From: a virus
Strand: one strand, 5' to 3'
DNA length: 47,886 bases
Virus record (IMG/VR): IMGVR_UViG_3300035390_000028
Span: 1 to 47,886 of that record
The notes below the pieces were generated by a model. It did not search any database, was not told the origin of the DNA, and was given only the letters and a program-made list of their open reading frames with translations. The stretch's first letter is position 1. The number at the start of each line of letters is the position of its first letter. Below are positions 11,878-47,886 of the stretch, piece by piece. The translations under genes and the position numbers were made by a program.

Positions 11878-11904
11878 ACATTCAGTTTAAGACTCAACTT
11901 TCTT

Positions 11905-11957
11905 TAGGGGGAGAGGGGGTTCGTAGGTCTGGGAGACTCGAGAGTCGACCAGACTGC
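11905..11957 (+). other. Candidate cos site (GC-rich dyad)
   Basis: GGGGGAGAGGGGG is followed at 11927-11954 by a 28-base nested dyad: GTCTGG...CCAGAC around GACTC GA GAGTC. In a region of about 30% GC this block is sharply GC-rich, non-coding, and placed between the HNH and terS genes, where cos sites lie in related phages. Confidence 0.5.
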
Positions 11958-12018
11958 TTCATCAAAGTTTCTCACACACAAGAATTAGGAAAGGCAAAAA
12001 CATCATAAAAGGACAAAA

Positions 12019-12468
12019 ATGAAAGCTATAGACATAAAAAACAAGATAAAATCAAATCGAACTCAAGGATCTAGGATCTTTCCAGAACCACCAAAAGAAT
12101 ATCTCAAGAGAGAAAAAGATGAATGGAATAGATTATCAAATTCACTACACATTACAGAAAAAGACATTGGACTTCTAACTTTGACAGTTTCATCTTTCTC
12201 AACATTCCAAGAATTTGACAAAGCAATTCATACAAGAATTGAAATAGATCCAGTTACTAAGAAAAGTAAATCGTACAAGCGAACTATGGCTGAGTATTTA
12301 TTGACTCACGCAAACAGCCAGAACCAAGTTGAACTTTCTAACAAAGCTAAGGCTCATGAATCATATCTAAAATCTATCAAACTTCTTAATGCTCTTTGTC
12401 CTCTTACAAATACAGTAAAAAATCCAACAGAAAGTGAGGAAGAAGACTTACTATCAGAGTTACTATAG
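12019..12468 (+). CDS. terS: Terminase small subunit, P27 type
   Basis: A 149-residue probable DNA-recognition subunit of the packaging motor. The N-terminus has the charged linker FPEPPKEYLKREKDEWNRL typical of P27-family small terminases, followed by helices and a polar acidic tail. AAAGGAC precedes the ATG. Its TAG is directly followed by the terL ATG with no gap, so the two are translationally coupled. Confidence 0.8.
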   Translation: MKAIDIKNKIKSNRTQGSRIFPEPPKEYLKREKDEWNRLSNSLHITEKDIGLLTLTVSSFSTFQEFDKAIHTRIEIDPVTKKSKSYKRTMAEYLLTHANSQNQVELSNKAKAHESYLKSIKLLNALCPLTNTVKNPTESEEEDLLSELL

Positions 12469-14169: not shown

Positions 14170-14224
14170 AAATTGTTCTCTTCCTCAAAAATAAAACAAG
14201 TTAATATTACAGAGGGAAAAGAAA

Positions 14225-14581
14225 ATGACAAACAAAAATGAAGTAACAAAATTAGTAGAAGAGTTCCAAGAGAATCATCCAGAAGTTCACGTATTCCAAA
14301 GACAAATAGCAATTACATTTACTGAAGAAGAATATGATGAGAAATCAACAATTCATTTAACAGAGAATGTTAAGAAAATGGAATTAGGAGATAGTGAAAT
14401 TTTATTATTCACTGAAGAGAAAGTTAGAGATAGAATTAAATGTTCTGGAATTCAAATTTCTGGAACAATAGATATCAGAATTTGGTTATCAGATATAAAT
14501 GCAAAATACCATTTTAGAAAGACAGAATTCTTTACAAAGAAGTGGATGAAGAACATACAAGAATTATTAACTATAGAATAA
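14225..14581 (+). CDS. Hypothetical protein between terL and portal
   Basis: A 118-residue soluble, charged protein that I do not recognise. AGAGGGAAAAG precedes the ATG. It lies between the large terminase and the next ACACTTGTTA motif, so it is the last gene of the packaging transcript. Confidence 0.6.
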   Translation: MTNKNEVTKLVEEFQENHPEVHVFQRQIAITFTEEEYDEKSTIHLTENVKKMELGDSEILLFTEEKVRDRIKCSGIQISGTIDIRIWLSDINAKYHFRKTEFFTKKWMKNIQELLTIE

Positions 14582-14608
14582 TCAAACTCAAATTTATTCA
14601 TCATTATT

Positions 14609-14627
14609 ACACTTGTTACTTAGAAAA
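14609..14627 (+). promoter_or_regulatory. Phage promoter-like motif upstream of portal
   Basis: ACACTTGTTACTTAGAAAA, identical over 19 bases to the copies at 17607, 22111 and 25678. It lies 14 bases before the portal ATG. Confidence 0.6.
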
Positions 14628-14641
14628 TAGAAGGAACATAA

Positions 14642-16654
14642 ATGAATAATATATTTAAAAGAAACAAGAAAGTAGAAGTAAAAGAATCAACAGAATTGAA
14701 AGAAGCTATATTTACAGGAAGTAATAATTCTGCAATATCAGTTCTTTTCCCATCTGAACTTTCTAGAGTTTTTAATAACTCAGCAGTTTGGGCGGCTGTT
14801 AGATATCTATCTCAAACAATATCTACACTCCCAATTCATATTTACGAAAAAGACGAGAACAAAAGAACTGAAAACTTCAAACATCCAGTTGTAAGCTTGT
14901 TAAATAACCCAAATCCTTACATGACAAAATCAGTTTTCTTTGAAACAATGATTATAAACTTAGAATTATTTGGTATTTCTTATGCAGAAATTACACGTTC
15001 TAGTAATGGCTACCCTATTGCTCTATATCCATTAGCTACAAAAGACATTCAAATCACAGCATACAGTGGAAGATTAACTTATACTTATCTCCCAAACGGA
15101 GCTGAACTTCCTATAGAGAATCTTTTAATGATTATGGGTGGTTCATCAACAGGTTTTATTCCTTTAAAACCAATTCAATATATGGATAGTACACTTGAAT
15201 TATCCAAAGCTGGTGAAGACCTTCAAAGAAAGTATTTACAAAAAGGAACTATGGCTGGTGGAGTTATTCAAGTTCCAGATACTTATTCTAATGAAGATAA
15301 GCAAAGACTTAAAACTTCATTTGATAATACATTTGCTGGAGTTAAAAACTCATTTTCTACAGTAGTTCTTTCTGGTGGAGTAACCTATGAACCTTTGAAA
15401 TTCTCAGCTGAAGACCAACAAATAATTCAAACCAGAGAGTTTTCAATTCAAGAAGTAGCTAGAAGATTTGGTGTTTCACCTTATGTTCTTGGAGATTTAT
15501 CTCATGCTACATTCTCAAATGTAGAACAGCAAGCAATACAAGAATTAAGAACAACTCTTCTCCCTAGAATAGTTAAGATTGAGGAAGCATTAAATAATAA
15601 GCTGTTCTCAGAAAAAGATAGAAAGAAATATTCAGTCAAATACAATATGGATGCTTTCCTTCGTGGTGATACCAGTTCAAGGTATGCAGCTTTCGGACTT
15701 GCCCTTCAAAATGGCTGGATGAATATTAATGAAGTAAGAGAAAGAGAAGACTTAAATCCAGTAATTGATGGTGATACTTTCTTTGTTCCATTGAATTATG
15801 TTTCAAGAGCAACAGCAACAAACTATATTCCAGCAAACTACGTTTCTGGTAGTGAAGAAATAGCTGAACCAAAAGTAGAAGAAATTATTGAGGAAGTTAT
15901 AGAACCAATCAAAGAAGAACTACTTACTGAATCATTTTATATTCAAGAACGCAAAGAAATTTCAGCAACAGCCAAGAAAAAAATTGAAAGACTTACTGCT
16001 AAAATGTTAAAGCAAGAACTTGCTTTGATGGATGAAAATATTGCAGTTATAGGTTCTCAGGGAGTTACTTCTTTTAAAGAACTTATCAATTCTAATGTTG
16101 GTAGAATAGCTATAGAATATACAGAACAATTTCAAACAATCTTTAATGAGATTTCACTTAGTATTAACAAATCTCTAATGAAGCAATTAGGAAAAGAAAC
16201 TCTAGCTGATGAAGAAGACTTAAAGAACTTCATAGAAAAATATACAGCTTCTTTTATTCACAGACACACAGGAGAAATAGTTCATAAGATGATTAATACA
16301 GCAGAGAAGACTACTCCAGAAACTGCTGTAAATGATTTTCAAGAAATATCTTCAAACTTAAAGATGAATCTTCCAAGAGAAACTTCAGAAGAAGAATCTG
16401 TTAGAAGTTCTAATGCAATAATTAAGGCAGCTTCTATTGGTTATGGTTTAACTAAACTTAAAGCTGTAGTTGATCCAGATGCTTGTGATTTTTGTCAACA
16501 ATTTTCTGGCAAAGTTTTTGGTGTTGAAGGATATTTAGCTGCAAAAGGAAGTGAAGTTGAAGATGGTGATGGGAACAAAACCTATATCAAAAAAGACTAT
16601 TCACACTTTCCTCTTCATAAATCTTGTCAGTGTGTAATCACACCAAGTATATAA
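14642..16654 (+). CDS. Portal protein fused to a MuF-like minor head domain
   Basis: A 670-residue protein. Residues 1-400 match HK97-type portals (AVWAAVRYLSQTISTLPIHIY, LNNPNPYMTKSVFFE, FGVSPYVLGD). Residues 430-550 are a helical, Glu/Lys-rich linker. Residues 570-670 match a MuF/minor-head domain, ending DACDFCQQFSGKVF and FPLHKSCQCVITPS, with paired cysteines. In most phages these are separate genes. There is no stop or frameshift in between, so the fusion is genuine in this sequence. The protein forms the DNA-entry vertex and probably carries an injected or connector domain inward. Confidence 0.88.
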   Translation: MNNIFKRNKKVEVKESTELKEAIFTGSNNSAISVLFPSELSRVFNNSAVWAAVRYLSQTISTLPIHIYEKDENKRTENFKHPVVSLLNNPNPYMTKSVFFETMIINLELFGISYAEITRSSNGYPIALYPLATKDIQITAYSGRLTYTYLPNGAELPIENLLMIMGGSSTGFIPLKPIQYMDSTLELSKAGEDLQRKYLQKGTMAGGVIQVPDTYSNEDKQRLKTSFDNTFAGVKNSFSTVVLSGGVTYEPLKFSAEDQQIIQTREFSIQEVARRFGVSPYVLGDLSHATFSNVEQQAIQELRTTLLPRIVKIEEALNNKLFSEKDRKKYSVKYNMDAFLRGDTSSRYAAFGLALQNGWMNINEVREREDLNPVIDGDTFFVPLNYVSRATATNYIPANYVSGSEEIAEPKVEEIIEEVIEPIKEELLTESFYIQERKEISATAKKKIERLTAKMLKQELALMDENIAVIGSQGVTSFKELINSNVGRIAIEYTEQFQTIFNEISLSINKSLMKQLGKETLADEEDLKNFIEKYTASFIHRHTGEIVHKMINTAEKTTPETAVNDFQEISSNLKMNLPRETSEEESVRSSNAIIKAASIGYGLTKLKAVVDPDACDFCQQFSGKVFGVEGYLAAKGSEVEDGDGNKTYIKKDYSHFPLHKSCQCVITPSI

Positions 16655-16661
16655 ATAAAAT

Positions 16662-16722
16662 AATACTCCCTCTTAGAGTATTTTATATATATTGTTCCAG
16701 TCTTTTGGCTGGGGCTTTTTTA
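16662..16722 (+). terminator. Two tandem terminator-like hairpins after portal
   Basis: AATACTC...GAGTATT then TTTTA at 16662-16684. A second, weaker hairpin, CCAG...CTGG followed by seven T, lies at 16694-16722. They separate the portal unit from the inserted gene at 16924. Confidence 0.6.
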
Positions 16723-16834
16723 TAAAAACATTTGTTAAGTTGTTAAATTTTCTTAAAAGTACTTAACGGATTTTTTTTTTAGATTTGTAATTACCTATAA
16801 TATAACAAATTAAAACCTAAAAAGTGTTAAGTGA

Positions 16835-16862
16835 TTAACAAGAATAAAAAAAATGTTACAAT
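16835..16862 (+). promoter_or_regulatory. Sigma-70-like promoter of the gene at 16924
   Basis: TTAACA and TACAAT are separated by 16 bases, 61 bases before the ATG. Another -10-like TATAAT lies at 16796-16801. This gene has an ordinary host-type promoter rather than the ACACTTGTTA motif, as expected for a gene expressed from the prophage. Confidence 0.5.
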
Positions 16863-16923
16863 AAGAGAGTAAATTGGAAGTGCACAACCAATAAAAAAAT
16901 TAACTTAAACAAGGAAATAACAT

Positions 16924-17490
16924 ATGAATAACGTAGTATTATCAGTAGTAGAAATTAACGGTGTGTATAGCTTAGGACTAGGAAACAATATAGATAACAA
17001 AGCCTTCCAAGATTTAAAAATGAATTGGAATAAACTTGATTCCTTTAAGGTTAAAGAAAATCAAAGTACTGATAGTCTTTCAGGATTCTGTAGGAACTAT
17101 CTTCAACCAGCACTTACTCTTTTGAATGATGGGAACATTGCTAGAAGTTCAAATAAAAGTGAAGAACAAGTAATGAAAGATGCTGAAGATTTGGAGAAAT
17201 CAATTAACTATGCTATTTCTGGTCGAGATGCAGGCAAAGGAAAAACTAGCAAAAAAAGAATAGGAATAAAACAATACATTGAAAAATTTACATCAGTAAA
17301 ATTAGAGGGATGTACAGAACTTGAAAAAGCAGAGCATATTGTTGATTTCTTAAAGAATGAAAGAAGAATCAAAAAAGTTGAAAAACAGTTAAAAGATTAC
17401 TCTGTTAATAAATACATGGATTCTAATTTCTATACTGAACAGTTAAATACTGTTGAAGTATTAAAGGACACACTTAACTCTTCAAAATAA
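16924..17490 (+). CDS. Moron-like hypothetical protein between portal and protease
   Basis: A 188-residue soluble protein that I do not recognise. It has a beta-like start (VVLSVVEINGVYSLGLG), then a long charged helical part with basic GKGKTSKKRIGIKQY. It interrupts the head cassette, has its own sigma-70-like promoter, and is bounded by terminators on both sides (16662-16722 and 17552-17584). This is the signature of a moron, a gene inserted into a phage and expressed in the lysogen. CAAGGAAATAACAT precedes the ATG. Role is unknown; regulator or exclusion factor are options. Confidence 0.65.
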   Translation: MNNVVLSVVEINGVYSLGLGNNIDNKAFQDLKMNWNKLDSFKVKENQSTDSLSGFCRNYLQPALTLLNDGNIARSSNKSEEQVMKDAEDLEKSINYAISGRDAGKGKTSKKRIGIKQYIEKFTSVKLEGCTELEKAEHIVDFLKNERRIKKVEKQLKDYSVNKYMDSNFYTEQLNTVEVLKDTLNSSK

Positions 17491-17551
17491 GAAAATCAAC
17501 TCCATATTATAAATATAAATAGTTCTAAATAAATTATCAATTTCTCAATAA

Positions 17552-17584
17552 AACACTGTAGTTAATTCTATGGTGTTTTTTTTT
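17552..17584 (+). terminator. Intrinsic terminator
   Basis: AACACTGTAG TTAATT CTATGGTGTT hairpin followed by about ten T. It closes the inserted gene and lies 22 bases before the next phage motif. Confidence 0.7.
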
Positions 17585-17606
17585 GTCTAAAAAATTTTCC
17601 TTAAAT

Positions 17607-17625
17607 ACACTTGTTACTTAGAAAA
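17607..17625 (+). promoter_or_regulatory. Phage promoter-like motif upstream of head protease
   Basis: ACACTTGTTACTTAGAAAA, exact 19-base copy, ending 11 bases before the protease ATG and 22 bases after a terminator. Confidence 0.6.
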
Positions 17626-17636
17626 AAGGAAAAAGA

Positions 17637-18299
17637 ATGAAAGAATTATTAATAGAAAATATAAGTTTAAAAACCATAAATACTAAACGTTCAGAACTTA
17701 CTGAAGAAGTAAATACTGTTTCTGACAGTATGATTTTTTACTCTGTTCCAGTTTGGAGATTGGATGAAGTAAATCTTAATGGAAGAACTTATACAACAAC
17801 TCTTGCAGAAAGATTAATTGCTGAGAATGCAATTACTTATTCATACTGCGACCATCCAGACGAAGAATATGCTCAAGATTTTAATAGTGTAAAAGCTGTT
17901 TCAAAGAATCCTCAAATTGTTGAAGGAAATCTTTGTGTAGACGTTCACTTAGTAGATAGAGAATTTGGTGAAAAACTAAAAGCTATTGTAAAAGCTGGAA
18001 GTGAAGTTGGAGTTAGTTCAGTTGGATATGGCTCTATGAATGAAGCAAACGTAATTGAAGCTGATTCATTTGAGTTAGTGAGATATTTGGATTTCGTTTT
18101 GAATCCTTCTTATTCAGTATTCATTACTGATGAAAACAATGAAGTAAAAGAAAACGAAGAAATAGTAGATAACACTGATAGTGATTTAGAAGAGAAACTT
18201 GATGAAAAAACGTTGGACTCAAGCGAAGAAACAACGGTTTCTATTTCAGAAGATGAACTGGAAGTTATTAATAAGAGGTTTAACAAATGGAAAAATTAA
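17637..18299 (+). CDS. Prohead (head maturation) protease
   Basis: A 220-residue likely serine protease that cleaves the capsid scaffold. The core resembles the gp21-like S80 group: VPVWRLDEVNLNGRTY, YCDHPDEEY with the probable catalytic His73, and GSEVGVSSVGYG with Ser127/Ser128. In relatives the residue after SS is often Arg or Lys; here it is Val. The tail after residue 165 is acidic and may act as scaffold. The last codons overlap the capsid gene by 13 bases. Confidence 0.75.
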   Translation: MKELLIENISLKTINTKRSELTEEVNTVSDSMIFYSVPVWRLDEVNLNGRTYTTTLAERLIAENAITYSYCDHPDEEYAQDFNSVKAVSKNPQIVEGNLCVDVHLVDREFGEKLKAIVKAGSEVGVSSVGYGSMNEANVIEADSFELVRYLDFVLNPSYSVFITDENNEVKENEEIVDNTDSDLEEKLDEKTLDSSEETTVSISEDELEVINKRFNKWKN

Positions 18300-19354
18300 T
18301 TGAAGAAAAGAAAGAATTAATTATTCAGTTAGAGACAAAACTCACAGAACTTAATGAAAGTAAAACTCCAGAATTGAAAGCAGAATATGAAGCTTTAGAA
18401 ACAAAAGTTGAAAGCATTGATTTCAAAATAGCTGAAATGGAAAAGGTAGCTGAAGTAGAACTTCCAGCTAAAATTAAAGACTTAAAGGAAAATATTACAA
18501 TGGACAAAACAATAAAAGAATTAATCAAAGAAGCAATCGATACAAGCTCAAATGTATCAATCCTATTACCATCTACAGTAGATGCTAGAATAGTACAAAA
18601 GAGAGATGAAGGTTCTTTCATGAGAAAGTATGCAAGTGTTTCTAATGCTGATGGTAACTCAATTATTCCAGTTGAAGGTTCACCAGTTGAAGCAGCTTTC
18701 GGTTCTGAAATTGCTTCTATTACAGAAAGTACTGCAACTTTTGAAACAGTAGAAATGAAAGCTAACAAAGTAGCAACTCTTGTTAAAGTTTCAGAAGATG
18801 CTTTGAACAACGCTGGTTTCGATTTAGAAGGCGAACTTGTTGGACAAATGGGTAGAGCTATTGCTAATGTTGAAAATGTAAAATACATCAATGGTACTGG
18901 TGTTGGCGAACCAAAAGGTATTACAAAATCTATTGTAGCTGGAAATACAGTAACAGCAGATGCAGCAGTATTAACTTGGGCAGATATTGAAACAGCTTAC
19001 TTTGGTTTGAAAGAACAATACAGAGAAAACGCAACTTGGTTAATGAACTCTAAAACTCTTAAAGCAGTTAAAGCTCTTTTAACTGATGATGGTTATCAAA
19101 ATGTTGCTCTTACTGAAGTTCTTGGTAAACATGTACAGATTGCAGAATCTATGCCAGACGTAGCAACAGAAGCAACTCCTATTATCTTTGCAGACTTAGC
19201 TTATTACAAGATTATGGACAGAACAAGTTTTGAGATTAAACCTCTTAATGAATTGTATGCAACTACTTCACAAAAAGGTTTCTTGGGTTCAGCTAGAGAA
19301 GATGCTCACTTTGTTTTATCAGAAGCAATGGTAGCTCTTAAAATGGCAGCTTAG
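18287..19354 (+). CDS. Major capsid protein, HK97 fold
   Basis: A 355-residue protein. The first ~75 residues are a coiled-coil, Glu/Lys-rich segment typical of the delta domain removed by the protease. Mature-type sequence follows: MRKYASVSNADGNSIIPVEG, VSEDALNNAGFDLEGEL, KYINGTGVGEPKGI. This order is standard for HK97-like capsids. It overlaps the protease gene by 13 bases, coupling the two. Confidence 0.9.
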   Translation: MEKLIEEKKELIIQLETKLTELNESKTPELKAEYEALETKVESIDFKIAEMEKVAEVELPAKIKDLKENITMDKTIKELIKEAIDTSSNVSILLPSTVDARIVQKRDEGSFMRKYASVSNADGNSIIPVEGSPVEAAFGSEIASITESTATFETVEMKANKVATLVKVSEDALNNAGFDLEGELVGQMGRAIANVENVKYINGTGVGEPKGITKSIVAGNTVTADAAVLTWADIETAYFGLKEQYRENATWLMNSKTLKAVKALLTDDGYQNVALTEVLGKHVQIAESMPDVATEATPIIFADLAYYKIMDRTSFEIKPLNELYATTSQKGFLGSAREDAHFVLSEAMVALKMAA

Positions 19355-33951: not shown

Positions 33952-34539
33952 CTAAAAACAAGGAACAGTTGCGTCTTTTGAAAGTCCGTAACTATTAAAT
34001 AATCCATCTCTAAATTCTGATTTTTCCTGCTTTATGTACAATATGTAGTAATTACTATTGCTATTACTTTTCAATCTTACAAAAGGCAGGTTATTATCTT
34101 TTTCTTCATAATTAACATACAAATCACATGCTTCATCATATTCAATATTATGACGCTTAGAATATCTTCTAACTAATTTTTCTTTGTTGTCCTTTATCTG
34201 AACTCTAGAAAAATTAACAAATCCGATTTCTGAAGGCACATCTCTTATTTTTGTAATATGAATATAATCCAACAACTTTGATAATCTACTCGTTAAACCA
34301 ACTTTCTCAAATTGAATTTCTGATAGATAAAAGATTCTTATTTTATCACCTAAAGTAAAATTATCAAGACAATATTTAGGGAATGAAATAGCTACATTGG
34401 ATTCCCCTTTACATTTTAATTCTGAAAATATTTTATGCAATTCTTCATACACTTTACATAATAAAAAATCTGTACTAATTTCCTCAGAAGATATCAATGT
34501 AATTTCTTGGTAAAAATTAAACTTATTTTGAGACTTCAC
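33952..34539 (-). CDS. cas6f: Type I-F crRNA endonuclease Cas6f (Csy4)
   Basis: About 195 residues, starting at the GTG at 34539 because the GGGGAGG ribosome site lies 9 bases upstream; an in-frame GTG at 34548 is too close to it. It cleaves the repeat RNA and stays bound to the hairpin. EELHKIF holds the catalytic His (residue 35 from this start), followed by NVAISFPKY. The C-terminus YGLSKDATVPCF is the conserved Cas6f ending. It overlaps csy3 by 17 bases. Confidence 0.9.
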   Translation of the reverse strand: MKSQNKFNFYQEITLISSEEISTDFLLCKVYEELHKIFSELKCKGESNVAISFPKYCLDNFTLGDKIRIFYLSEIQFEKVGLTSRLSKLLDYIHITKIRDVPSEIGFVNFSRVQIKDNKEKLVRRYSKRHNIEYDEACDLYVNYEEKDNNLPFVRLKSNSNSNYYILYIKQEKSEFRDGLFNSYGLSKDATVPCF

Positions 34540-35548
34540 CAAAAACACCTCCCCTAATTATCATTGCGATTGAATAATTAGCTTCTTCGGTATTATTAAA
34601 TACAGAATTTCCGGTTGCTTTGTCAAATACAGTATAAAAATCTATTTTAGTTGCTGGACTTCTGTAAGCCCTTCCTAAGTTAGTAACAGAACCATAAGTT
34701 TCTATAGCAATTGGAGTATTTAATTCTTCATACTCATCAAACCAGGTATCAATTGTTCTAAGAGCATTACCAATTTTTTGAGAATGCATTCCAGCAACTC
34801 CATCGATAGAGAATAATATTTTACTTTTCTTACCTTTATTACTACTGCTACTGCTCTTATCAAGAACCAATTCTTCACTAGGATAAACATCTTGAGCTTC
34901 GCCCATTTTTACATATGCATCAATTTTTAAATTTAAGAAATCACTATCACTAGCAAGAGCAGATGCAATCATTTTACCTAGTTCTTTAACATCCTTATTA
35001 TCAGAATCAAAATTCCTAATACTAAAGTCAAAAGCGTTAAAGATCCATTCTTTTCCTTTTCTCTCTTCTTTTACATGAATTTCAATAGCATCAGTTCCTA
35101 CTCTATTTCTCCACAAGAATCGTCCGTTAGCAATATTAATTGCATATCTTAAACCAAGTTCATCAAAACCTATTTCAGATTGGAATGTATCAATTAATTT
35201 TTCATAACGTTTTAGAAAAGCTTTATCATTACAAGATGAAGGAGTTTTAATATTTCCTAAAACCTTCAAAGTAAAAAACATATGCAATGTATCGAAACCG
35301 ATAGGTAAGTTACAAGCATCTACTATCTGTAAATTTGCATTTTGTATCATCTTATCAAGTTTTGCAGGATCGGTTGCATCACCTTTTTTCAATCTATTTG
35401 AAATTGTACCCTTAATTGATTTAGCAATTATTTTTAGAGGAACGTTATTTTCAATTTTATTTCCCCATTTTGAAGCGAACATAATACCATTGGATGGTAC
35501 CAATTTTTTTTCATAAGCTAATACTGATGGTAAAGTAATTTTTGCCAT
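34523..35548 (-). CDS. cas7f: Type I-F Cas7f (Csy3), crRNA backbone subunit
   Basis: A 341-residue protein, the size of characterised Csy3 (about 342). It polymerises along the spacer part of crRNA. Recognisable segments are LPSVLAYEKKLVPSNGIMFA at the start, FTLKVLGNIKTPSSCNDKAF, and LRYAINIANGRFLWRNRVGT. It lies between csy2 (12-base gap) and csy4 (overlap), the standard order. Confidence 0.92.
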   Translation of the reverse strand: MAKITLPSVLAYEKKLVPSNGIMFASKWGNKIENNVPLKIIAKSIKGTISNRLKKGDATDPAKLDKMIQNANLQIVDACNLPIGFDTLHMFFTLKVLGNIKTPSSCNDKAFLKRYEKLIDTFQSEIGFDELGLRYAINIANGRFLWRNRVGTDAIEIHVKEERKGKEWIFNAFDFSIRNFDSDNKDVKELGKMIASALASDSDFLNLKIDAYVKMGEAQDVYPSEELVLDKSSSSSNKGKKSKILFSIDGVAGMHSQKIGNALRTIDTWFDEYEELNTPIAIETYGSVTNLGRAYRSPATKIDFYTVFDKATGNSVFNNTEEANYSIAMIIRGGVFGEVSK

Positions 35549-35560
35549 TTTATTTCTCCT

Positions 35561-36439
35561 CTATTTACAAATATATAAATTATTTATTTCGTCATATTCA
35601 TATTGCCATAACATTTGATCTATAGAATCTAATCTGTAGGGCATTACAAACTCACCTAAAGTAACTATTGCTTCAGCAAATCTATGTAGATAATCATTAT
35701 TACGTTGATTCTCAACATGCTTTAACTCATCAAGACCTTGATATCCAACTGAAATTGGAACAAACCAGCCATTACTAAGTTTCTTGCTTCTACTCCATTC
35801 AACTACTTCCTTTTCATCAATTTCGGCCTTTGTATTTACCTGAATAAATGATATTACAGAATCAAAAGCATTGATTGAATTTTGTATCATGTCGTTTTCA
35901 ATTAAAGATTTTCGATTTATTATAGAAAAGCCCTTGTTCAAACTTCTTAAGAATTTTTTATCATCATTTTCCGAATTATCATCAATTCTTTTTAAGAATA
36001 CATTCTTGTAAGAAATAATATTTCCACTAGCAATTTTCATCCTAGAATGTAATAAAGTCTCAACATCTTCAATAAATTGAGACTCTTTTAATTTTCTAAC
36101 ACCATCATATTCAATCAACAATGAAACTTCTAAATTACATAGAGGTTCCTCTATAAATGAATCGGTTTTCCCTGTTCCTAATAATGGATGTCGTTTTTCA
36201 ATAACTGACAAGTTTGAATAAAACAACTGAGAATCTTTATACACTCTTAAATCAAAATCATTGCAAATTATACCAATTTTATTTAACTTCAAATCAGTAT
36301 ATTCATCACTTAATTCCCTCTGTAATCTATGCATAAAGCCTAAAAACGACGTAATAGCAGGAAATCCAACAGTATATGGTGATGAAAAGGCATTTGCCTC
36401 TTCGATTTTTACATTTGTAATTGTTAAATATTTTTTCAT
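35561..36439 (-). CDS. cas5f: Type I-F Cas5f (Csy2)
   Basis: A 292-residue subunit that binds the 5' crRNA handle together with Cas8f. Conserved segments are YTVGFPAITSFLGFMHRLQR, RHPLLGTGKTDSFIEEP, and the C-terminal FAEAIVTLGEFVMPYRLD. Its ATG overlaps the csy1 stop (ATGA), a translational coupling. Confidence 0.9.
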   Translation of the reverse strand: MKKYLTITNVKIEEANAFSSPYTVGFPAITSFLGFMHRLQRELSDEYTDLKLNKIGIICNDFDLRVYKDSQLFYSNLSVIEKRHPLLGTGKTDSFIEEPLCNLEVSLLIEYDGVRKLKESQFIEDVETLLHSRMKIASGNIISYKNVFLKRIDDNSENDDKKFLRSLNKGFSIINRKSLIENDMIQNSINAFDSVISFIQVNTKAEIDEKEVVEWSRSKKLSNGWFVPISVGYQGLDELKHVENQRNNDYLHRFAEAIVTLGEFVMPYRLDSIDQMLWQYEYDEINNLYICK

Positions 36440-37815
36440 GAAAGAACCTCCATATTTTCGTTTAACAATTCATTAATAAAGGTAATTTCTAAATCACCCA
36501 ATATATAATGGTCTTCAAATTTAAATTTCTTAAAACTAAAAACAATCCATCTTGCAATCATAGAAATAAACTGAGATATATCTGTAGACAAATCTCTTTC
36601 ATCTTCATATTTTGAATCTAATATTTTTTTCTGATATTCCGGCAAACTGGCGTATCTTTCACCTTCACTCCAACCTGGTTCAACTGCTCTTATTGATTGA
36701 ACCTTTTCAATTATTTTATCAAATATATTAAAAATAACTGAATCACGATAATCACGTATATTTTGATTATTATAATTTATACTAAATACATCGTGTAGAC
36801 TTTTAAAATTACCACGGTAATTATTAAAATATAGACTCTCCCTAAAAAAATCATAATGAGGTAATCTTACATTACGTTTTTTTAAGATTGGAGGAAGTGA
36901 AGAAAACATATAAGCAGTACTATTAATTGAATTTAAATATGATATATTTTGTTTCTTAGTTCCACCAAATCCAATTTCAACAACATCATAAATATCATGA
37001 ATTTCTACATCTGAATATTTGTTTTTCTTTTTTGCCTCTCTTACTAATTTTGCTTCATCAGAAAATTTATTATCAAGAATGTTTTTTTTCAAATAGAATA
37101 ATTGATCAGATGGGTATAAAATTGATAGCAAATGATAATCTTCATAGCCAATTGGAAAAAAAACCTGTTTCAATTTATTATCTGTTTGAGTAATATTTTC
37201 ACTATGTTTAATGCTTAATATTGCTTCTTTAATCTCACTATAAGATAATCTTAGATGTGCAAAATTTGATTTTGCACACTCATCATCCATCTTAAAATGC
37301 TCTAAAAGAGTTTTATCATCTTCCAATTTTAGATAAAGAAATTTAACATATCCTAATAATGCAGCATTAACCGAAACATCTTCTTGAACTGGTCCACAAT
37401 TGCCTGATCTAATGTAACCGTCATTTCTAGCTTCATTAGTTGCCCATAAGTTAATTGGTGCACTAATTTTCGAATTAGTATATTTGCAACAATGTGAGCA
37501 GAAAATAATTTTTTCATTTAGTGTTTTAAGTATTTTAGGTAAATATTCATTTATAAAATAAATCAAGTTTTTTTCAATTGTAATATCAACAATATCTTTA
37601 TTCTCTAAATCTTCAACTTTTAAGTTTACACCTAACCAAGTCTTTACTGAATCTATCTTAGAATCTTGATTAATCTTAATTGATAATTCAGTAGTAATCT
37701 TTTTTTCTGAATCATTTTTTAAAATTTTCTCTTTTTCTTTAATATAACTATTTGTACTTTTATTTATTTCATTTCTTGCTTTATCAACAAAATATTCTCT
37801 TAAATTATTATCCAA
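36436..37815 (-). CDS. cas8f: Type I-F Cas8f (Csy1), PAM-recognising large subunit
   Basis: A 459-residue subunit that reads the PAM and opens the target. The start is a TTG at 37815, 5 bases after AGGAGGT, which lies in the end of cas2-3. The segment LWATNEARNDGYIRSGNCGPVQED and the C-terminal ARWIVFSFKKFKF match Csy1. A CSHCC motif at about residue 105 could bind zinc. Confidence 0.85.
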   Translation of the reverse strand: MDNNLREYFVDKARNEINKSTNSYIKEKEKILKNDSEKKITTELSIKINQDSKIDSVKTWLGVNLKVEDLENKDIVDITIEKNLIYFINEYLPKILKTLNEKIIFCSHCCKYTNSKISAPINLWATNEARNDGYIRSGNCGPVQEDVSVNAALLGYVKFLYLKLEDDKTLLEHFKMDDECAKSNFAHLRLSYSEIKEAILSIKHSENITQTDNKLKQVFFPIGYEDYHLLSILYPSDQLFYLKKNILDNKFSDEAKLVREAKKKNKYSDVEIHDIYDVVEIGFGGTKKQNISYLNSINSTAYMFSSLPPILKKRNVRLPHYDFFRESLYFNNYRGNFKSLHDVFSINYNNQNIRDYRDSVIFNIFDKIIEKVQSIRAVEPGWSEGERYASLPEYQKKILDSKYEDERDLSTDISQFISMIARWIVFSFKKFKFEDHYILGDLEITFINELLNENMEVLS

Positions 37816-37818
37816 ATT

Positions 37819-40800
37819 TTACCTCCTATTTAATCCTAATCTTACTGAGTAAGAAAGAGCCTTTTTCTCCAATAAATAATTGGGGACTTCAATGAAGCTA
37901 TACACTCTTTCAACTTTATCACTACTCAAATTCATTCTTTCACAATAACTATCAATGACCTTTCTGTAATCAAGCTCTAGCCACATCTTTTCAGTTTTTT
38001 CATTTTCTATAAATTCAATATTATAAGTTTCATTCACAGCAATAAAATGCCCATAATCATCTCTTTCATAGAAGTTAAATTCATCTTCAGTATAGAAACA
38101 ATAAATCCTTTTATTATCTACCCCGTTTCTAAATCGTGCATATATCATAGGCAAACCTGTTAAAGCCCAAAAACCTTTATAGTATCCATTTAAATTCTCA
38201 GGACCAAATCCATCACCTTCATTCAGTAAAGAATATTTAATTGATTCATGCTCAATATTTATTAAACTATTATTATGATTGAATTCACTATTTTGCTTCA
38301 ATCTTGGTATAGAATTAATACTTTTATTCAATTCCTTATTATCAATAATCTCATACATATTATGTGATGATAATTTATAGTCTTTTCCTTGTTCGTAACC
38401 CGGCTTATTAAAAACAGCATTATCATCATTTTTTAAAGAATTCAAATTATATTGTAATATTGCAATATTAGAAGATTTGCATATTTTTTTTCTATGACGT
38501 AAAACTCTTCCTGCTAATTGTATTATTGATCTTACAGAAGATGGTTCAACAATTGCCCAATCAAAGTCATGATCTCTACCCACCTCTTCAATTGGGGATG
38601 AAATAATCATGAAAATAATGTTATCTTTTTTCGATCTATCAATGTGAGACCTTATAGTATTATCAGTAAAACAAAAGGTATCTACTTCATCCTTTCGGTA
38701 AAGAACCTTATCAAGATAATTTTCAATTTCATTTCTAACAAGAAGTATATTTCTACTGTGATAGCATAGATAAAATATGTCTGTATCATCACAATTATAA
38801 TTATTTAGACTTCCTGCAAAATCAATACAATTATCAATATGTGCAAATCTAACTAAACCAAATGAAATACATTTGTTACTTTTAGCATCAATTACATTAT
38901 TGGATTTATGAAGTACTATTGAAGATTCAATCATTTTATATAAAACTTCTTCTTTAGAATCATCTAGACTAAAATCAATTAAAGTTCCTTTTCTCTTTAT
39001 TCCATTTTTAGCCTCTTCATCTTGCAAAGATACAATTCTTTTATTAATGAACTTTTGATATTTATCCTCAAACACTTTAAGATCTTTAGGTTCTTTAAAT
39101 ACAGAATTAGAAAATTCATCTACAAAGCAAGTAATTATGGGACTAAGGCTTTTATTATATGCATTTTTAACAGCCCAACCTTCTGAATAAGCTTTATAAT
39201 AACCTTTTGAAATACTAGGAGTAATTGTTGCTGAAGATATCAATACCCGTCGTCCCAACATACCAGCTAGATATACCAAATGAGCTATTGCAATCAAATC
39301 ATCAAATACAAAATCGTCTATCTCATCAATAATTAAATCACTTGTTGAAAGTCTCAAAAAAGGTACAATCCACCTCCCACCAAGATAATTTTCACTTGCA
39401 GGAATTAGATGATCTATTGTGCTTACACACAGTGGAGCACAGAGGAATTTCATATCTTTATCTGATTTAATAACAGTAGATAAAGCTACATCTGAAATAA
39501 TATTACCATAATCTATATCATCAAATGATGATAAATCAAAAACGGATTCATTCTTTTCTAAATTATGTAATTTATCAATGGCACTTGATCCTATTACAAC
39601 CGCTAAATCTGTATTATCAATATGCATTTTATTACGATACATATCACCTGTTTGTAAAGTCAAACTTCTTAACCCCAAAGCTATATTAAACCTTACATCT
39701 TCTTCTTTACTAGATATTGCATTTAATATTTTTGCATTTGCAAAAGTTTTACCAGTACCTGTTGAAGCTAAATTAACGCAAAAAAAGCCATTTTCTTTCT
39801 TGTCTTCATCCTCAATATTCTTTAACTTTGCAGCAATTTTATCTTGCCAATAAAACTTAGAATCTTTGTTAGATTTTTTAGTGAGGGCTTTAGCATTTTC
39901 CAAACCGAGTAGTTGTGAGGAACTCTTATTGACTGTATAAATTGCCTGTAGAGCTTCTTTTTCTACTCCTAATAAGTGTTCTTCTAAAAATTGTTTTACT
40001 TTACCTTTATGCTCTCTATCGCTACAAGTATTTGCATATAATTTTAGCTTGCATGTATATTTTTCATCTTTATCTTTTGAAGAAAAATAATAATCACCCA
40101 GCATTAAATACAATCTAGCTTTTTTTACAAGCAGAAATAGCACTCTCTCATCATCTATAGATTCAAATAAATCTAATTGATTTAATAATTTATTACTCCA
40201 TTTTTTTACTTCTTTTGTCCATCGATCAGAAAAATTTATGCCGTTAGAAAATGAATTAATATATTCTTTATCATTTGTTTTATGATAACCCCATCCATCA
40301 TCAATTAGTTGGAATAATTCCTTCCAATTATCAATACCTTCACCTAGGTATTCTTTATCTTTTTTTTCTGATTTTATAAAAGGCATTCTATGATGAGATA
40401 TTATCAAATATGAAATAATAAGAACTAAATTTGAAAATTGAGATTTATCACTTTTGATATTAATACCTTTTTCTTTTAATAAAGAAGACTGTTTTATTAA
40501 CACCTCATCAAATTCAGGTGATGCAAAATCAGATAACCATGGTTTATCATCGTTATTTTTAATAAACGATTGAAACATAAACATTGATATATATTCATGT
40601 CTTATGATATCGGATTTCTTTTTATTCTTTAACATACCCTGAAATCCATCAGAAGCTTTTCCTAAATCATGAAATAATGCAGAAAGAGCAACAATACATT
40701 TAATTAATGGTAGATAATGGTCTTTATTTTCCCACTCATTATGTAAAAGATTTTTAGAGGTAGTAGCAATCGGTACAATTCCTTCTACTGTATATTTAAG

Positions 40801-41037
40801 CTTACTACCAACAATCCATAATAATTCAGATTCTTTTATTTTATGAAGCCAATGACAGGCCACAGAAGTATTCTTGGAAGCAGTCTTGCATAGATGAGCC
40901 TTTACAACCTTAAGGCCCTCTAAAGTGATGTTAGTTTTCCATGTTGTGGGACCTATTCTATTAGCATACATATCCAATACTTGAGCAGTCTTTAGTCTAG
41001 ATTTTTTTTCACTTAAAGAAATAAATACTACAATCAT
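37819..41037 (-). CDS. cas2-3: Cas2-Cas3 fusion, helicase-nuclease of type I-F
   Basis: A 1072-residue fusion specific to type I-F: a Cas2 domain at residues 1-90 (integration), an HD nuclease (LFHDLGKA, His123-Asp124, later SHHRMP), and an SF2 helicase (Walker A STGTGKT at 425-431, DEID at 571-574, SSAT at 601-604, and QLAGRVLRHRK). It degrades targeted DNA and takes part in spacer acquisition with Cas1. All key motifs are intact. It starts 5 bases after cas1 and ends 3 bases before csy1. Confidence 0.95.
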   Translation of the reverse strand: MIVVFISLSEKKSRLKTAQVLDMYANRIGPTTWKTNITLEGLKVVKAHLCKTASKNTSVACHWLHKIKESELLWIVGSKLKYTVEGIVPIATTSKNLLHNEWENKDHYLPLIKCIVALSALFHDLGKASDGFQGMLKNKKKSDIIRHEYISMFMFQSFIKNNDDKPWLSDFASPEFDEVLIKQSSLLKEKGINIKSDKSQFSNLVLIISYLIISHHRMPFIKSEKKDKEYLGEGIDNWKELFQLIDDGWGYHKTNDKEYINSFSNGINFSDRWTKEVKKWSNKLLNQLDLFESIDDERVLFLLVKKARLYLMLGDYYFSSKDKDEKYTCKLKLYANTCSDREHKGKVKQFLEEHLLGVEKEALQAIYTVNKSSSQLLGLENAKALTKKSNKDSKFYWQDKIAAKLKNIEDEDKKENGFFCVNLASTGTGKTFANAKILNAISSKEEDVRFNIALGLRSLTLQTGDMYRNKMHIDNTDLAVVIGSSAIDKLHNLEKNESVFDLSSFDDIDYGNIISDVALSTVIKSDKDMKFLCAPLCVSTIDHLIPASENYLGGRWIVPFLRLSTSDLIIDEIDDFVFDDLIAIAHLVYLAGMLGRRVLISSATITPSISKGYYKAYSEGWAVKNAYNKSLSPIITCFVDEFSNSVFKEPKDLKVFEDKYQKFINKRIVSLQDEEAKNGIKRKGTLIDFSLDDSKEEVLYKMIESSIVLHKSNNVIDAKSNKCISFGLVRFAHIDNCIDFAGSLNNYNCDDTDIFYLCYHSRNILLVRNEIENYLDKVLYRKDEVDTFCFTDNTIRSHIDRSKKDNIIFMIISSPIEEVGRDHDFDWAIVEPSSVRSIIQLAGRVLRHRKKICKSSNIAILQYNLNSLKNDDNAVFNKPGYEQGKDYKLSSHNMYEIIDNKELNKSINSIPRLKQNSEFNHNNSLINIEHESIKYSLLNEGDGFGPENLNGYYKGFWALTGLPMIYARFRNGVDNKRIYCFYTEDEFNFYERDDYGHFIAVNETYNIEFIENEKTEKMWLELDYRKVIDSYCERMNLSSDKVERVYSFIEVPNYLLEKKALSYSVRLGLNRR

Positions 41038-41042
41038 AAATA

Positions 41043-42011
41043 CTACTTCCTTATTTGAGAAAATTCTTCTGCAATCAGTTGAACTGAATCAAACATGAAG
41101 TCTAAAACTTTGTAATCAGTAAACTTTTTAATACATTCACTTCGAAATAGTTCATCTTCAATAAAATCATCATAAGTACTAAATGCAAGGGGAAGAACAA
41201 CTGCATCTTTTATTAAATCAGCTACATCAAACACAAGAGCCCCTCTTCTTGTTTTTCCATGCATCAATGCAAAAGCAGGAGGAATTCCTAATGCCCATAA
41301 AGATAGAGAAGCCAACCCATATGCTAAATAGTTTCCATAATTCAAATTTTGATTTATCCTATCATTATTACTTCTATCACGTGAAAAATCTTTTATTTTA
41401 TTATGAATACATGCTATCCTATATAAAGATTTAGTAAATTTTGCTTCAGAAAGAAGTAAAGAATTAACATCACTTGCACTTGCTATAGACTTTCTAAAGA
41501 TTCTAATGATTTTTTCAACTTCAATAGAATCATTTTCAAAACCACATTTTCTAAACAAGTTATCTTTAGAATAAACTTTATCAATAAAATCTAAACGAAG
41601 ATATTGAAATTTCTTGGCAGCTAGTAGTCTAATTTCATTATCGTACCAGAATGAAACCCATTGCTGTAAAAACTGAGTTGGTCTATATTCATTTTTCGAA
41701 CTAACCCACTCTATATCTGTACCAGCAATTAAAGGGGTACCATTGCTACCAGAAAAACCTAGCATAACTCCTGCAGATGATAGATATCTTACTGCAGCTT
41801 GTGTAATAGATGTACCTGTACCAAGCAGAATTACTGTGGTATTTGCTATTGGTATATTATAGTAAAAGAACTTATTTTTTACTTGAGTTAGATATGTAAC
41901 CCTACCATCTTTAACCAATATTCTGCATTTTTCTAAGTAATAGATATTTGTTCTTTTCGAATAAAGTATTGCTTTTAAATCTTTTGATTGTAGCTGTTCT
42001 TCATAATTCAT
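41043..42011 (-). CDS. cas1: Type I-F Cas1 integrase
   Basis: A 322-residue protein that catalyses spacer integration at the leader-proximal repeat. Conserved LGTGTSITQAAVRYLSSAGV, then LSLWALGIPPAFALMHGKTRRGALVFDVADLIKDAVVLPLAF, which holds the His and Asp of the metal site. It is the first gene of the cas operon. The array is upstream and transcribed toward it. Confidence 0.95.
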   Translation of the reverse strand: MNYEEQLQSKDLKAILYSKRTNIYYLEKCRILVKDGRVTYLTQVKNKFFYYNIPIANTTVILLGTGTSITQAAVRYLSSAGVMLGFSGSNGTPLIAGTDIEWVSSKNEYRPTQFLQQWVSFWYDNEIRLLAAKKFQYLRLDFIDKVYSKDNLFRKCGFENDSIEVEKIIRIFRKSIASASDVNSLLLSEAKFTKSLYRIACIHNKIKDFSRDRSNNDRINQNLNYGNYLAYGLASLSLWALGIPPAFALMHGKTRRGALVFDVADLIKDAVVLPLAFSTYDDFIEDELFRSECIKKFTDYKVLDFMFDSVQLIAEEFSQIRK

Positions 42012-42386: not shown

Positions 42387-45300
42387 TGTCTAAGTTGCCT
42401 ATTCGGCAGATAACTTATAATGGACGATTGGGAAGAATTCATAAGCTCTTTAAGCTGCCTATTCGGCAGATAACTATCTTGGCATTTCATTTTTCCCAAA
42501 TTAGTATCTCTAACCTGCCTATTCGGCAGATAACGGTTTATCCTTGGGCTACGTGTTAACGCTGAGTCTCAAAGCTGCCTATTCAGCAGATAACTTATGT
42601 TCTGATGATTACGGGTGGGACAATGATCTCTAAGCTGCCTAATCGGCAGATAACTAGATAGTAGAAAAAAATGGAATTTTGGAAAATCTCTAAGCTGCCT
42701 ATTCGGCAGATAACCAATTAAAATGTATAGTGAGGATATTTCACGATCTCTAAGCTGCCTATTCGGCAGATAACTTGTAGATGGTGAACTAGATTTAACT
42801 TTAAAATCTCTAAGCTGCCTATTCGGCAGATAACATATAAATATTTTTTTATCTATATAATCTTATTTCTCTAAGCTGCCTATTCGGCAGATAAGGTGCT
42901 TCCATCTCTGCTAATGCAAATTCAGCTTCTCTAAGCTGCCTATTCGGCAGATAACTTCTGGAGCTCTCCAAGTCTTTTAAGTCCTGCTCTCTAAGCTGCC
43001 TATCCGGCAGATAACCTAAGTATCTCGGTGGTCATAGTGATGTTATTTCTCTAAGCTGCCTATCCGGCAGATAACATTGGGACGCTATCGTCCTTGGTGC
43101 ATTGGCTTCTCTAAGCTGCCTATCCGGCAGATAACACTTACTCCAGGAAAAAAAGGGTAACTATCATTCTCTAAGCTGCCTATCCGGCAGATAACCGCCC
43201 GTAACCTCAATTATTTGCTTGCCTTTTTCTCTAAGCTGCCTATCCGGCAGATAACTAATTCCCTTGCTTCTATAGGGTGTGTCTTAGTCTCTAAGCTGCC
43301 TATCCGGCAGATAACCTGTGGAAATCTTAGAGATACATTCGATTACTTCTCTAAGCTGCCTATCCGGCAGATAACATATTCCATATCTTGCAGTTGATAG
43401 ACAAGTTTCTCTAAGCTGCCTATCCGGCAGATAACCAATTGTATCTCAGATTATTAAACTACATTCATCTCTAAGCTGCCTATCCGGCAGATAACGATAC
43501 TACTTTAAATCTTGATTTTACTTATGATCTCTAAGCTGCCTATCCGGCAGATAACATGTAGGTAATGATCCTTATTTTGGTGCAGATTCTCTAAGCTGCC
43601 TATCCGGCAGATAACTTAACATTCATAAACCCTTTGCGAACGTGCACTCTCTAAGCTGCCTATCCGGCAGATAACTGGGAACGGGGGACGCATATACGGT
43701 TTTTTTGGTCTCTAAGCTGCCTATCCGGCAGATAACATCCTAAAACTGTTAATGATAGAATCATTGGTTCTCTAAGCTGCCTATCCGGCAGATAACTTTT
43801 TAAAAGCTAAAGGTTATCCAATTTCTATTCTCTAAGCTGCCTATCCGGCAGATAACCAATTAAAGATGATGTTATGCTCGATTTTCAATCTCTAAGCTGC
43901 CTATCCGGCAGATAACTATTATGGATTCATTGGACTTTGTTTTCAATTTCTCTAAGCTGCCTATCCGGCAGATAACACACACCCCACTACTAGCTTTTTT
44001 ATTTCAAACTCTCTAAGCTGCCTATCCGGCAGATAACAGGCTTACTAAGTGTAAGTTTAAAGAAAGATTTCTCTAAGCTGCCTATCCGGCAGATAACTGT
44101 CAATAATGCCACGTTCTGCATACCAACAGTCTCTAAGCTGCCTATCCGGCAGATAACACTAATAGACCATAATTAAGGAGACCTTAAATTCTCTAAGCTG
44201 CCTATCCGGCAGATAACATTTACGAGATACTTTCGATTATTGGCATCTATCTCGAAGCTGCCTATCCGGCAGATAACATTGGATCAGGTGGAAAAGTCAC
44301 TTTTGTAAATCTCTAAGCTGCCTATCCGGCAGATAACATGGCTCGAAAGAAATGCAAGGGCAGGGGTTATCTCTAAGCTGCCTATCCGGCAGATAACTTT
44401 TACTATCAATTAATGAGAATGATTTAAAATCTCTAAGCTGCCTATCCGGCAGATAACAAGACGTTTGTAATACTTCCGAGATAATAACTTCTCTAAGCTG
44501 CCTATCCGGCAGATAACGTGTCCTCTTTTGGACACTATTTTTTGTTTAATCTCTAAGCTGCCTATCCGGCAGATAACTTCTGTTTAACTAAATAAACACC
44601 CCCCCTAAATCTCTAAGCTGCCTATCCGGCAGATAACGATACAGTTGATTTCTTTGAACCTTGGGAGCGGTCTCTAAGCTGCCTATCCGGCAGATAACCA
44701 ACATTTGCTTGACATTTCTCATAGCGACTATCTCTAAGCTGCCTATCCGGCAGATAACTTATCTCCGGGAACCATTTCTTCACACATGGTATCTCTAAGC
44801 TGCCTATCCGGCAGATAACTACCAATTGCGGTACTTCTTGGATTCCAACGATCTCTAAGCTGCCTATCCGGCAGATAACTTGTTAACATTGTTTGTCCTT
44901 GTGCTCCGCACTCTCTAAGCTGCCTATCCGGCAGATAACACCATGTTCATGTAATGTATCAATATCTTCAATCTCTAAGCTGCCTATCCGGCAGATAACA
45001 AGACGTTTGTAATACTTCTGAGATAATAACTTCTCTAAGCTGCCTATCCGGCAGATAACCAATATTCCCAACAACTTAATTTGCCTCATATTCTCTAAGC
45101 TGCCTATCCGGCAGATAACGATAAGCCAGAAACCGCATTAACTCCGTGGAGTTCTCTAAGCTGCCTATCCGGCAGATAACATATAAGGCGTATACAGAGC
45201 CTAAACTTGAATTCTCTAAGCTGCCTATCCGGCAGATAACTATGATGATTTTATGAATTATAAAGAATTTGATCTCTAAGCTGCCTATCCGGCAGATAAC

Positions 45301-45901
45301 CCTCATGTATGGAGTAAAGTTTCCGTCAAGATTCTCTAAGCTGCCTATCCGGCAGATAACGCTCGTTTGTTTATATCTTCCCTCATATAAGGTCTCTAAG
45401 CTGCCTATCCGGCAGATAACCCAGGTATTATCACATATAGTTATAAGATTATTCTCTAAGCTGCCTATCCGGCAGATAACAACCTGGGGATTTAATAAAC
45501 ATGACTTTGATTTCTCTAAGCTGCCTATCCGGCAGATAACATAGGTTCATATTGTTTCCTTGTGCTCCGCACTCTCTAAGCTGCCTATCCGGCAGATAAC
45601 ACTTGTAAATGAATACAACTCATTAAGAGTTTTCTCTAAGCTGCCTATCCGGCAGATAACTCATACCACGTTGAATAAGCCAAGCTTGAAAATCTCTAAG
45701 CTGCCTATCCGGCAGATAACGATTACAAGTTATAAAGGACTCATTTAACAGATCTCTAAGCTGCCTATCCGGCAGATAACTTACCACCCTTCTCACTCAT
45801 GTCAAAAGGAATGTCTCTAAGCTGCCTATCCGGCAGATAACTAAATTATGAATAGGATCTAACGCAACGTAGTTCTCTAAGCTGCCTATCCGGCAGATAA
45901 C
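42387..45901 (-). CRISPR. Type I-F CRISPR array, 59 repeats and 58 spacers
   Basis: The 28-base repeat, read on the minus strand, has stem CTGCC-GGATA-GGCAG and ends with handle CTTAGAGA, like I-F repeats. Fifty-one spacers are 32 bases and seven are 33 (numbers 8, 22, 27, 38, 40, 46 and 57 counted from the low-coordinate end). Transcription is on the minus strand: repeat orientation, degenerate repeats at the low-coordinate end, and PAM placement of two spacer matches all agree. Repeats 1-10 carry TATTCGG (or worse) in plus-strand reading; repeats 11-59 carry TATCCGG. Repeat 9 ends with G and repeat 32 has TCTCGAAG. Open frames through this region are artefacts of the repeat. Confidence 0.98.
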
Positions 45902-46370: not shown

Positions 46371-47849
46371 TTAATCTTCAATTTGCCAAAACAGATTAAC
46401 TTCAACATTTTTCTCTACTTGTTTTATTGTAGATGTTCCTGAATGCAACTTAATAATCTGAGATACAATTGCAAGTCCAAGGCCATTACCACCACTGGTT
46501 CTACTCTTGTCTCCTCTTTCCCACGGTTCAAAGAAATCAACTGTATCATCAATTGTACCAGGGTTTGTAACAACTATATTGTTTTCTTTAATAGTTACTT
46601 CTACACCCTCTTTTGAGACCTCTAGTGCATTATCAAGTAATTCTTTTATAGCAAGTTTCATGGTTGTGAAATCGCAATAAATCTCATCACTTTCTATGTT
46701 GAATTTAACTGTTTTGTATTTAATGTTTGATCTAATTAAATCATCAACGAGTACTCGAGATTCAGTTGCTTGAGGTATTATTGCTTTTTCAGGACTCTGC
46801 AATGATGAATATAATACAACTCTATTTATCTTATTAGATAGATCTTGTTGTTCATTTTTCAGTGTTTTAACGGTTTGTTGGTTAAGAGGAAATATTCCAT
46901 CTTCCATTCCACTAAGCAAAAGATTCATTGATGTTATTGGAGTATTTAAATCATGTGTGATTGAATTCAGCCAAGCTTTTCTGTTCTTTCTGTTTGCAGC
47001 AAGAGATTCATCAAGGCTATGAATTGATTCAATAATCTCTTGATATTCTTCAATCTTATTGTGACTTGATAGCTCTAGATTTTCTTTTCCTAGTGCTAAT
47101 TTATTAAGGGAATCTTTTATCTCTGTTATTGATTTTTGACTTATCTTACTTATTCTGTAACTCATTATAAAAGCAATCAATAAGGCAATCATAAAACAAA
47201 TACTCAACCATTTTGCTGCTTGTCTCATTATCATTGAAGTTGCAGCATATGTGGATGGACTGTAGTTTAGTACATCAACACTAAATGCATATTGACCGCG
47301 AAGAAGTACTATCAAACTACCGCCAATGAATTTCTCTTTAATCATTGGAGGTACTTCAAGATTTCTTGTATCTGTATCTTTTTTAGCTACAACTTGCAGT
47401 GTTACTTTATCATCTGTTAGGTTTAGTATATTTACCCTATCTCTAACAGCAATTGTTACAAATTCACTTTCATCAAGATCTTGTCCCTTTAAAAGTTTTG
47501 TTGTTGTATTTGGTTCTGATGATTGTATTTGTGCTAACTTTTCACCTAGTTGAGTAACACCTAGAGAATAGATTATTTTATCATTTGGCCCTCTAAATAA
47601 AAGACCAGAAATTCTCTTATCGGATAATGCTGCTGAATCTGTTATTTGAATAAATTTGCCAAAACTCATCTCACCTTGTGCATTTGAAACAGAAGAAGCT
47701 ACCTTCTGGCTAAATGTTTCAAAGCTTTGTTCGACCCAATCATTTGTAGCGGAATTATAGAACAAACTTATTGAAGCGATTATAAATAAAATTATAATCA
47801 CTGCAACGCTTATTATTGATAAAAATGTTCTAAAAAATAGTTTTCGCAT
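46371..47849 (-). CDS. Membrane sensor histidine kinase
   Basis: About 492 residues. I choose the ATG at 47849; an in-frame TTG at 47864 overlaps the upstream gene and lies too near AGGAG. Numbered from the longer TTG form: a membrane segment at about 11-34, an extracytoplasmic sensor to 215, a second membrane segment near 218-236, a linker, the H-box THDLNTPI with His304, the N-box LLDNALEVS (Asn412), the F-box FFEPW (444-448) and the G-box GNGLGLAIVS. It is the partner of the regulator whose end overlaps the window edge. Two array spacers match it. Confidence 0.9.
   Translation of the reverse strand: MRKLFFRTFLSIISVAVIIILFIIASISLFYNSATNDWVEQSFETFSQKVASSVSNAQGEMSFGKFIQITDSAALSDKRISGLLFRGPNDKIIYSLGVTQLGEKLAQIQSSEPNTTTKLLKGQDLDESEFVTIAVRDRVNILNLTDDKVTLQVVAKKDTDTRNLEVPPMIKEKFIGGSLIVLLRGQYAFSVDVLNYSPSTYAATSMIMRQAAKWLSICFMIALLIAFIMSYRISKISQKSITEIKDSLNKLALGKENLELSSHNKIEEYQEIIESIHSLDESLAANRKNRKAWLNSITHDLNTPITSMNLLLSGMEDGIFPLNQQTVKTLKNEQQDLSNKINRVVLYSSLQSPEKAIIPQATESRVLVDDLIRSNIKYKTVKFNIESDEIYCDFTTMKLAIKELLDNALEVSKEGVEVTIKENNIVVTNPGTIDDTVDFFEPWERGDKSRTSGGNGLGLAIVSQIIKLHSGTSTIKQVEKNVEVNLFWQIED
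46440..46471 (+). other. Protospacer-like site for spacer 18
   Basis: Matches spacer 18 (43436-43467) at 29 of 32 bases, in the sensor-kinase G-box coding sequence. CC lies immediately 5' (46438-46439), the type I-F PAM. The mismatches are at crRNA positions 7, 9 and 10. All three are silent in the kinase frame. Confidence 0.9.
46515..46547 (+). other. Protospacer-like site for spacer 38
   Basis: Matches spacer 38 (44638-44670) at 29 of 33 bases, in the F-box coding sequence. CC lies immediately 5' (46513-46514). The mismatches are at crRNA positions 1, 3, 4 and 10. All four are silent in the kinase frame. Confidence 0.92.
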
Positions 47850-47853
47850 CAAC

Positions 47854-47886
47854 TTATTCTTCAACTCCTACAAATCTATAACCATA
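47854..47886 (-). CDS. C-terminus of an OmpR-type response regulator (partial)
   Basis: Ten codons reading YGYRFVGVEE then stop, cut by the window edge. YGYRF is the usual ending of the winged-helix domain in OmpR-family regulators. Its stop falls a few bases before the kinase ATG (47849), so the two form an operon. Confidence 0.75.
   Translation of the reverse strand, partial: YGYRFVGVEE

Follow-up and report, generated by a model that had tools for sequence, protein, structure and literature searches.

Two near-identical spacers of a type I-F CRISPR array as probable separate captures of one gokushovirus capsid site

How does a CRISPR array come to hold two spacers that differ at a single base, with eight others between them? 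The question is posed by a 47,886-nt IMG/VR virus record, analysed here in full (the window), along which a tailed prophage with integrase, terminase, portal and tail protein genes is followed by a type I-F cas operon, a CRISPR array and a histidine kinase gene. The array (42387-45901, minus strand) comprises 59 repeats (GTTATCTGCCGGATAGGCAGCTTAGAGA) and 58 spacers, with its leader side at 45902. Repeats are degenerate at the 42387 end and identical toward 45901; the degeneration marks, we infer, the old trailer side, so that spacer 35 would be older than spacer 44. Spacer 35 (44458-44489, minus strand; AAGACGTTTGTAATACTTCCGAGATAATAACT) and spacer 44 (45000-45031, minus strand; AAGACGTTTGTAATACTTCTGAGATAATAACT) are identical at 31 of 32 bases, differ solely at base 20 (C/T) and share the same boundaries. 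Their local alignment score is 30, whereas the highest score for any spacer pair was 11-18 across 30 shuffles. Spacers 36-43 are all distinct, and no full second copy of any of them exists elsewhere. The near-duplicate and its coordinates are as the initial annotation described them.

Several lines of evidence place the array in an ordinary type I-F system. Profile matches identify a complete operon (33952-42011, all genes on the minus strand) in which cas1 (Cas1f, 41043-42011; TIGR03637, 389.7 bits, over the cut-off), a cas2-cas3 fusion (Cas3f, 37819-41037; TIGR02562, 800 bits, with the Cas2 domain PF21384) and csy1 to csy4 lie together. The last four are csy1/cas8f (36436-37815; PF09611, 267.8 bits, over the Pfam cut-off, with TIGR02564 below the NCBIfam cut-off), csy2/cas5f (35561-36439; TIGR02565, over the cut-off), csy3/cas7f (34523-35548; TIGR02566, 378 bits) and csy4/cas6f (33952-34548; TIGR02563, over the cut-off). 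The 28-nt repeat carries a CTGCCG..TAGGCAGC hairpin, spacers are about 32 nt long (51 of 58 at 32 nt, seven at 33 nt), and protospacers have a CC (GG) PAM, the exceptions being the known relatives of the targets of spacers 11 and 30. The I-F (Ypest) system of Pectobacterium atrosepticum has the same six genes, 28-nt repeats and CC/GG PAM, a similar division of spacer lengths (about 90/10, against 88% of 32 nt and 12% of 33 nt here) and, like this array (45 of 58), a first spacer base that is mostly A or T (PMC5059440). It differs in its host, which in the present case is AT-rich and probably a spirochaete.

That placement comes from one gene. The sensor histidine kinase (46371-47864, minus strand), preceded by the end of a response regulator within 46371-47886, is 60% identical to a protein of a Spirochaetaceae MAG, its only relative in a scan of all species genomes; the MAG keeps the same regulator-kinase order, and the next-best match in that taxonomic order is 40% identical. 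An Arcobacteraceae host, considered from an ArsS-like kinase match, was dropped because the only species-genome relative of the kinase is a spirochaete. Csy3 is about 46-50% identical to that of other I-F systems of the spirochaete order, and the scan of all species genomes gave no Csy3 relative. The array repeat was absent from the viral contigs searched, comparison of the prophage region with phages gave no match, and another I-F array of the same order (G078, 33 spacers) contains no gokushovirus spacer. Spacers 18 (43436-43467) and 38 (44638-44670) match the host kinase gene itself, at 46440-46471 and 46515-46547, at a distance of about 540 nt from the array; they show three and four mismatches and have a CC PAM. 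Each of the seven mismatches is silent and falls at PAM-proximal crRNA positions 1-10, which suggests either the kinase allele of a close relative or escape of the self gene at the seed level. Within the tailed prophage, a block (ACACTTGTTACTTAGAAAA) is repeated at 14609, 17607, 22110 and 25678, directly before structural genes and twice after a terminator-like hairpin; these blocks are possibly phage late promoters. The prophage also holds homing-endonuclease-like (GIY-YIG) and HNH genes (6102-6731 and 3919-4821), and a PARCEL/DUF285-type repeat surface protein with 72-nt repeats (10009-11376) adjoins its structural genes.

What the paired spacers target is indicated by viral sequences. Read on the minus strand, the variable codon is TCG in spacer 35 and TCA in spacer 44, within V-I-I-S-E-V-L-Q-T-S. 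The change is equally silent in a second open frame that shares the third positions (DVCNTSEIIT); the reading frame was therefore set by the viral matches and not by silence alone. By hand count, about one quarter to one third of random substitutions in that stretch would be silent, and the silence is weak evidence. A wobble-tolerant pattern of the spacer, with any base allowed at third positions, had exactly one match in 2.9 million viral contigs; it fell in a gokushovirus, within the capsid stretch EYIGGSKSSVIISEVLQTS, and PF02305 confirmed the capsid family. A second pattern, CCN followed by VII.EVLQT, found 24 stretches in viral contigs. The search for both spacers in viral sequences that the initial annotation had called for returned, as the best match, a gokushovirus capsid site (contig L107) that agrees with either allele at 28 of 32 bases, encodes the identical peptide, differs from the spacers only at third positions of codons and has a CC PAM. 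The PAM is supplied by the CCN proline codon preceding VIISEVLQTS. The proposed frame is therefore real and belongs to a conserved gokushovirus capsid motif, in which the variable base occupies the third position of a four-fold-degenerate serine codon (crRNA position 13); viral sites carry A 17 times, T 14, C 4 and G 3 there, redundant contigs included. No source virus within two mismatches of spacers 35 and 44 was found in the searched collections, where the best has four. GenBank microvirus records matched spacers 35/44, 11, 1, 29 and 30, in each case at the capsid gene, with E-values that are weak singly. The target resembles known Gokushovirinae (Microviridae; prophages as in PMC7062461) in its PF02305 capsid, replication protein, DNA pilot protein and size of about 4-5 kb, and differs from them in that the exact lineage lies outside the searched collections and is linked here to Spirochaetota.

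The pair is part of a broader sampling of these viruses. About 13 of the 58 spacers match gokushoviruses, one (57) in VP4 and 12 at the capsid gene, a share biased upward because targets recognised by similarity tend to be conserved sites. Among the first 80 microvirus contigs, a site with eight or fewer mismatches exists for 12 of 58 spacers, compared with 0-1 of 58 for five shuffled sets; spacer 11, the probable thirteenth, came from adding GenBank records. At the protein level 11 spacers outscored every shuffle, and matches in the PF02305 gene lie beyond chance. Antisense protospacers in the capsid gene account for spacers 1 (42415-42446; IMDDWEEFIS), 16 (43316-43347; CGNLRDTFDY), 29 (44098-44129; SIMPRSAYQQ), 30 (44158-44189; the C-terminus and stop, LIDHN*, with a PAM other than CC in known relatives), 31 (44218-44249; LRDTFDYWHL) and 33 (44338-44369; WLERNARAGV), and sense protospacers for 40 (44759-44791; TMCEEMVPGD), 41 (44820-44851; RWNPRSTAIG) and 56 (45721-45752; LLNESFITCN). 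Spacer 11 (43016-43047) probably derives from capsid KYLGGHSDVI, with 27 of 32 bases matched in contig L092, where the PAM is not CC, and spacer 57 (45781-45813) from the antisense strand of the replication initiator (VP4; LPPFSLMSKGM); all lie on the minus strand of the window. In contig L018, the best all-round relative, CC occupies the PAM place at every one of the capsid sites for spacers 1, 16, 29, 31, 33, 35/44, 40, 41 and 56, against a background frequency of 4.2%. The sites of spacers 16 and 31 overlap at LRDTFDY and spell that peptide with different codons; the array thus records at least two viral lineages there. Spacers 42 (44880-44911) and 53 (45541-45572) share 16 identical PAM-side bases and are likely a second same-site pair; if a CC PAM precedes them they read PCGAQGQTMLT and PCGAQGNNMNL, and a pattern for their shared part had no viral match.

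Could the pair have arisen inside the array, by duplication of spacer 35 and a later point mutation? CRISPR arrays recombine between repeats, and the identical boundaries of the two spacers are what a copy would show. With no contiguous block of duplicated spacers present and none of spacers 36-43 duplicated, this account requires two events, an unequal crossover and loss of the intervening copies, in addition to the mutation. Young neighbouring repeats carry one substitution in 1372 nt, a density at which about 0.05 substitutions are expected across two spacers, and other spacers sample the same viral gene repeatedly with no duplication involved. We consider such an origin distinctly unlikely, in agreement with the initial annotation, which had discounted local duplication. 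A single infection episode, in which one cell held a pair of related gokushoviruses or two genomes in tandem, is very unlikely, even though some public contigs do carry two different gokushovirus genomes arranged head to tail (L018, L106, L110, L111). Eight spacers intervene, the majority of which match no microvirus, and the head-to-tail contigs may be assembly chimeras. Of the five contigs of this kind, four have two copies that fit the motif, and in these the two diverge at several third positions and not at one. The genome pairs in L018, L106, L110 and L111 are about 87-88% identical, and those in L011 about 70%; tandem prophages, mixed concatemers and assembly chimeras are alternative readings of all five. 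Nor did we find a single source containing both copies as an internal repeat, which the initial annotation had named as the refuting observation: nearly all single-length gokushovirus contigs have one copy of the motif, and the exception, L052, repeats its own end.

The initial annotation spoke of re-acquisition from an allele that had "escaped or drifted", and only the second term fits the data. Escape would mean that spacer 44 was acquired because the virus had evaded spacer 35 through this very mutation, and the older spacer does mismatch the newer target at one base. The change is silent, falls at a four-fold-degenerate site, and lies outside both the PAM and the usual seed of a type I-F crRNA, which excludes position 13; moreover all four bases occur at that position in unrelated viruses. 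Nothing in the sequence suggests that the variable base would lower interference, and escape is the least likely of the accounts weighed here.

The most probable explanation, to which we assign a probability of roughly 0.8, is that one capsid protospacer was captured on two separate occasions, from closely related gokushoviruses, to give spacers 35 and 44. Re-acquisition from a drifted allele, as first proposed, gains support from the viral capsid matches and from the repeated sampling of the gene. An ordinary type I-F system would have captured the PAM-defined site at P-VIISEVLQTS to give spacer 35, and later the same site, one silent base different, from a second gokushovirus to give spacer 44. 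The order and separateness of these captures and the close kinship of the source viruses are inferred from a single array of this host. In viruses that are about 88% identical, copies of the motif diverge at several third positions; the lone difference between spacers 35 and 44 therefore suggests closely related source viruses. A genome of about 4.2 kb offers 320-560 CC sites; for 12-13 spacers and 250-350 usable sites, one or more same-site pairs would arise with a probability of about 0.17-0.27. Since so small a genome has only a few hundred PAM sites, it is unsurprising that one was taken twice. There is precedent in E. coli type I-E, where the same spacer was acquired twice in one strain (PMC3338789); the present case likewise involves one spacer captured more than once, and differs in having two alleles, in a natural array of type I-F.

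Earlier spacers may in addition have promoted later captures through primed or interference-driven adaptation. By age, seven antisense capsid spacers are followed by five sense ones (35, 40, 41, 44 and 56), giving two runs among 12 (exact P 0.0025), or three among 13 with spacer 57 added (P 0.010), in a pattern noticed after the fact. These strand runs lend weak support to captures steered by earlier spacers. The more specific proposal, for which the runs are likewise weak support, is that an earlier spacer with a slight mismatch steered the system back to its own target after drift and so updated the guide; we regard it as doubtful. The whole record is real, well explained and mostly ordinary CRISPR behaviour, the two spacers against the kinase gene being its one odd feature.

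The array bears on the hosts of gokushoviruses as well. Gokushovirus prophages have been described in enterobacteria (PMC7062461), and earlier links between microviruses and Spirochaetes were set aside as single contigs in fragmented MAGs (PMC9239249). Gokushovirus capsid genes occur in three of 392 Spirochaetota genomes, with phylum placement taken from the database, and the prophage regions lie at 10219-14661 (L175), 8250-13066 (L176) and 15433-18581 (L129). Two are inside chromosomal contigs of 94 kb and 236 kb, and both of these adjoin a mreB-rodA region (genes named from recognisable sequence); one is flanked by a 20-nt dif-site-like repeat (GAATATTCATTATCGGAAGT), its copies about 4.8 kb apart. 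The third occupies one end of a 137-kb contig, where cmk- and rpsA-like genes adjoin it. Spacers 35 and 44 form an ordered record of a tiny-phage lineage that would have returned after drift and been recorded a second time at a capsid site that hardly varies. More is gained from the host link, in which a probable spirochaete array with about 13 gokushovirus spacers is joined by gokushovirus prophages in Spirochaetota.
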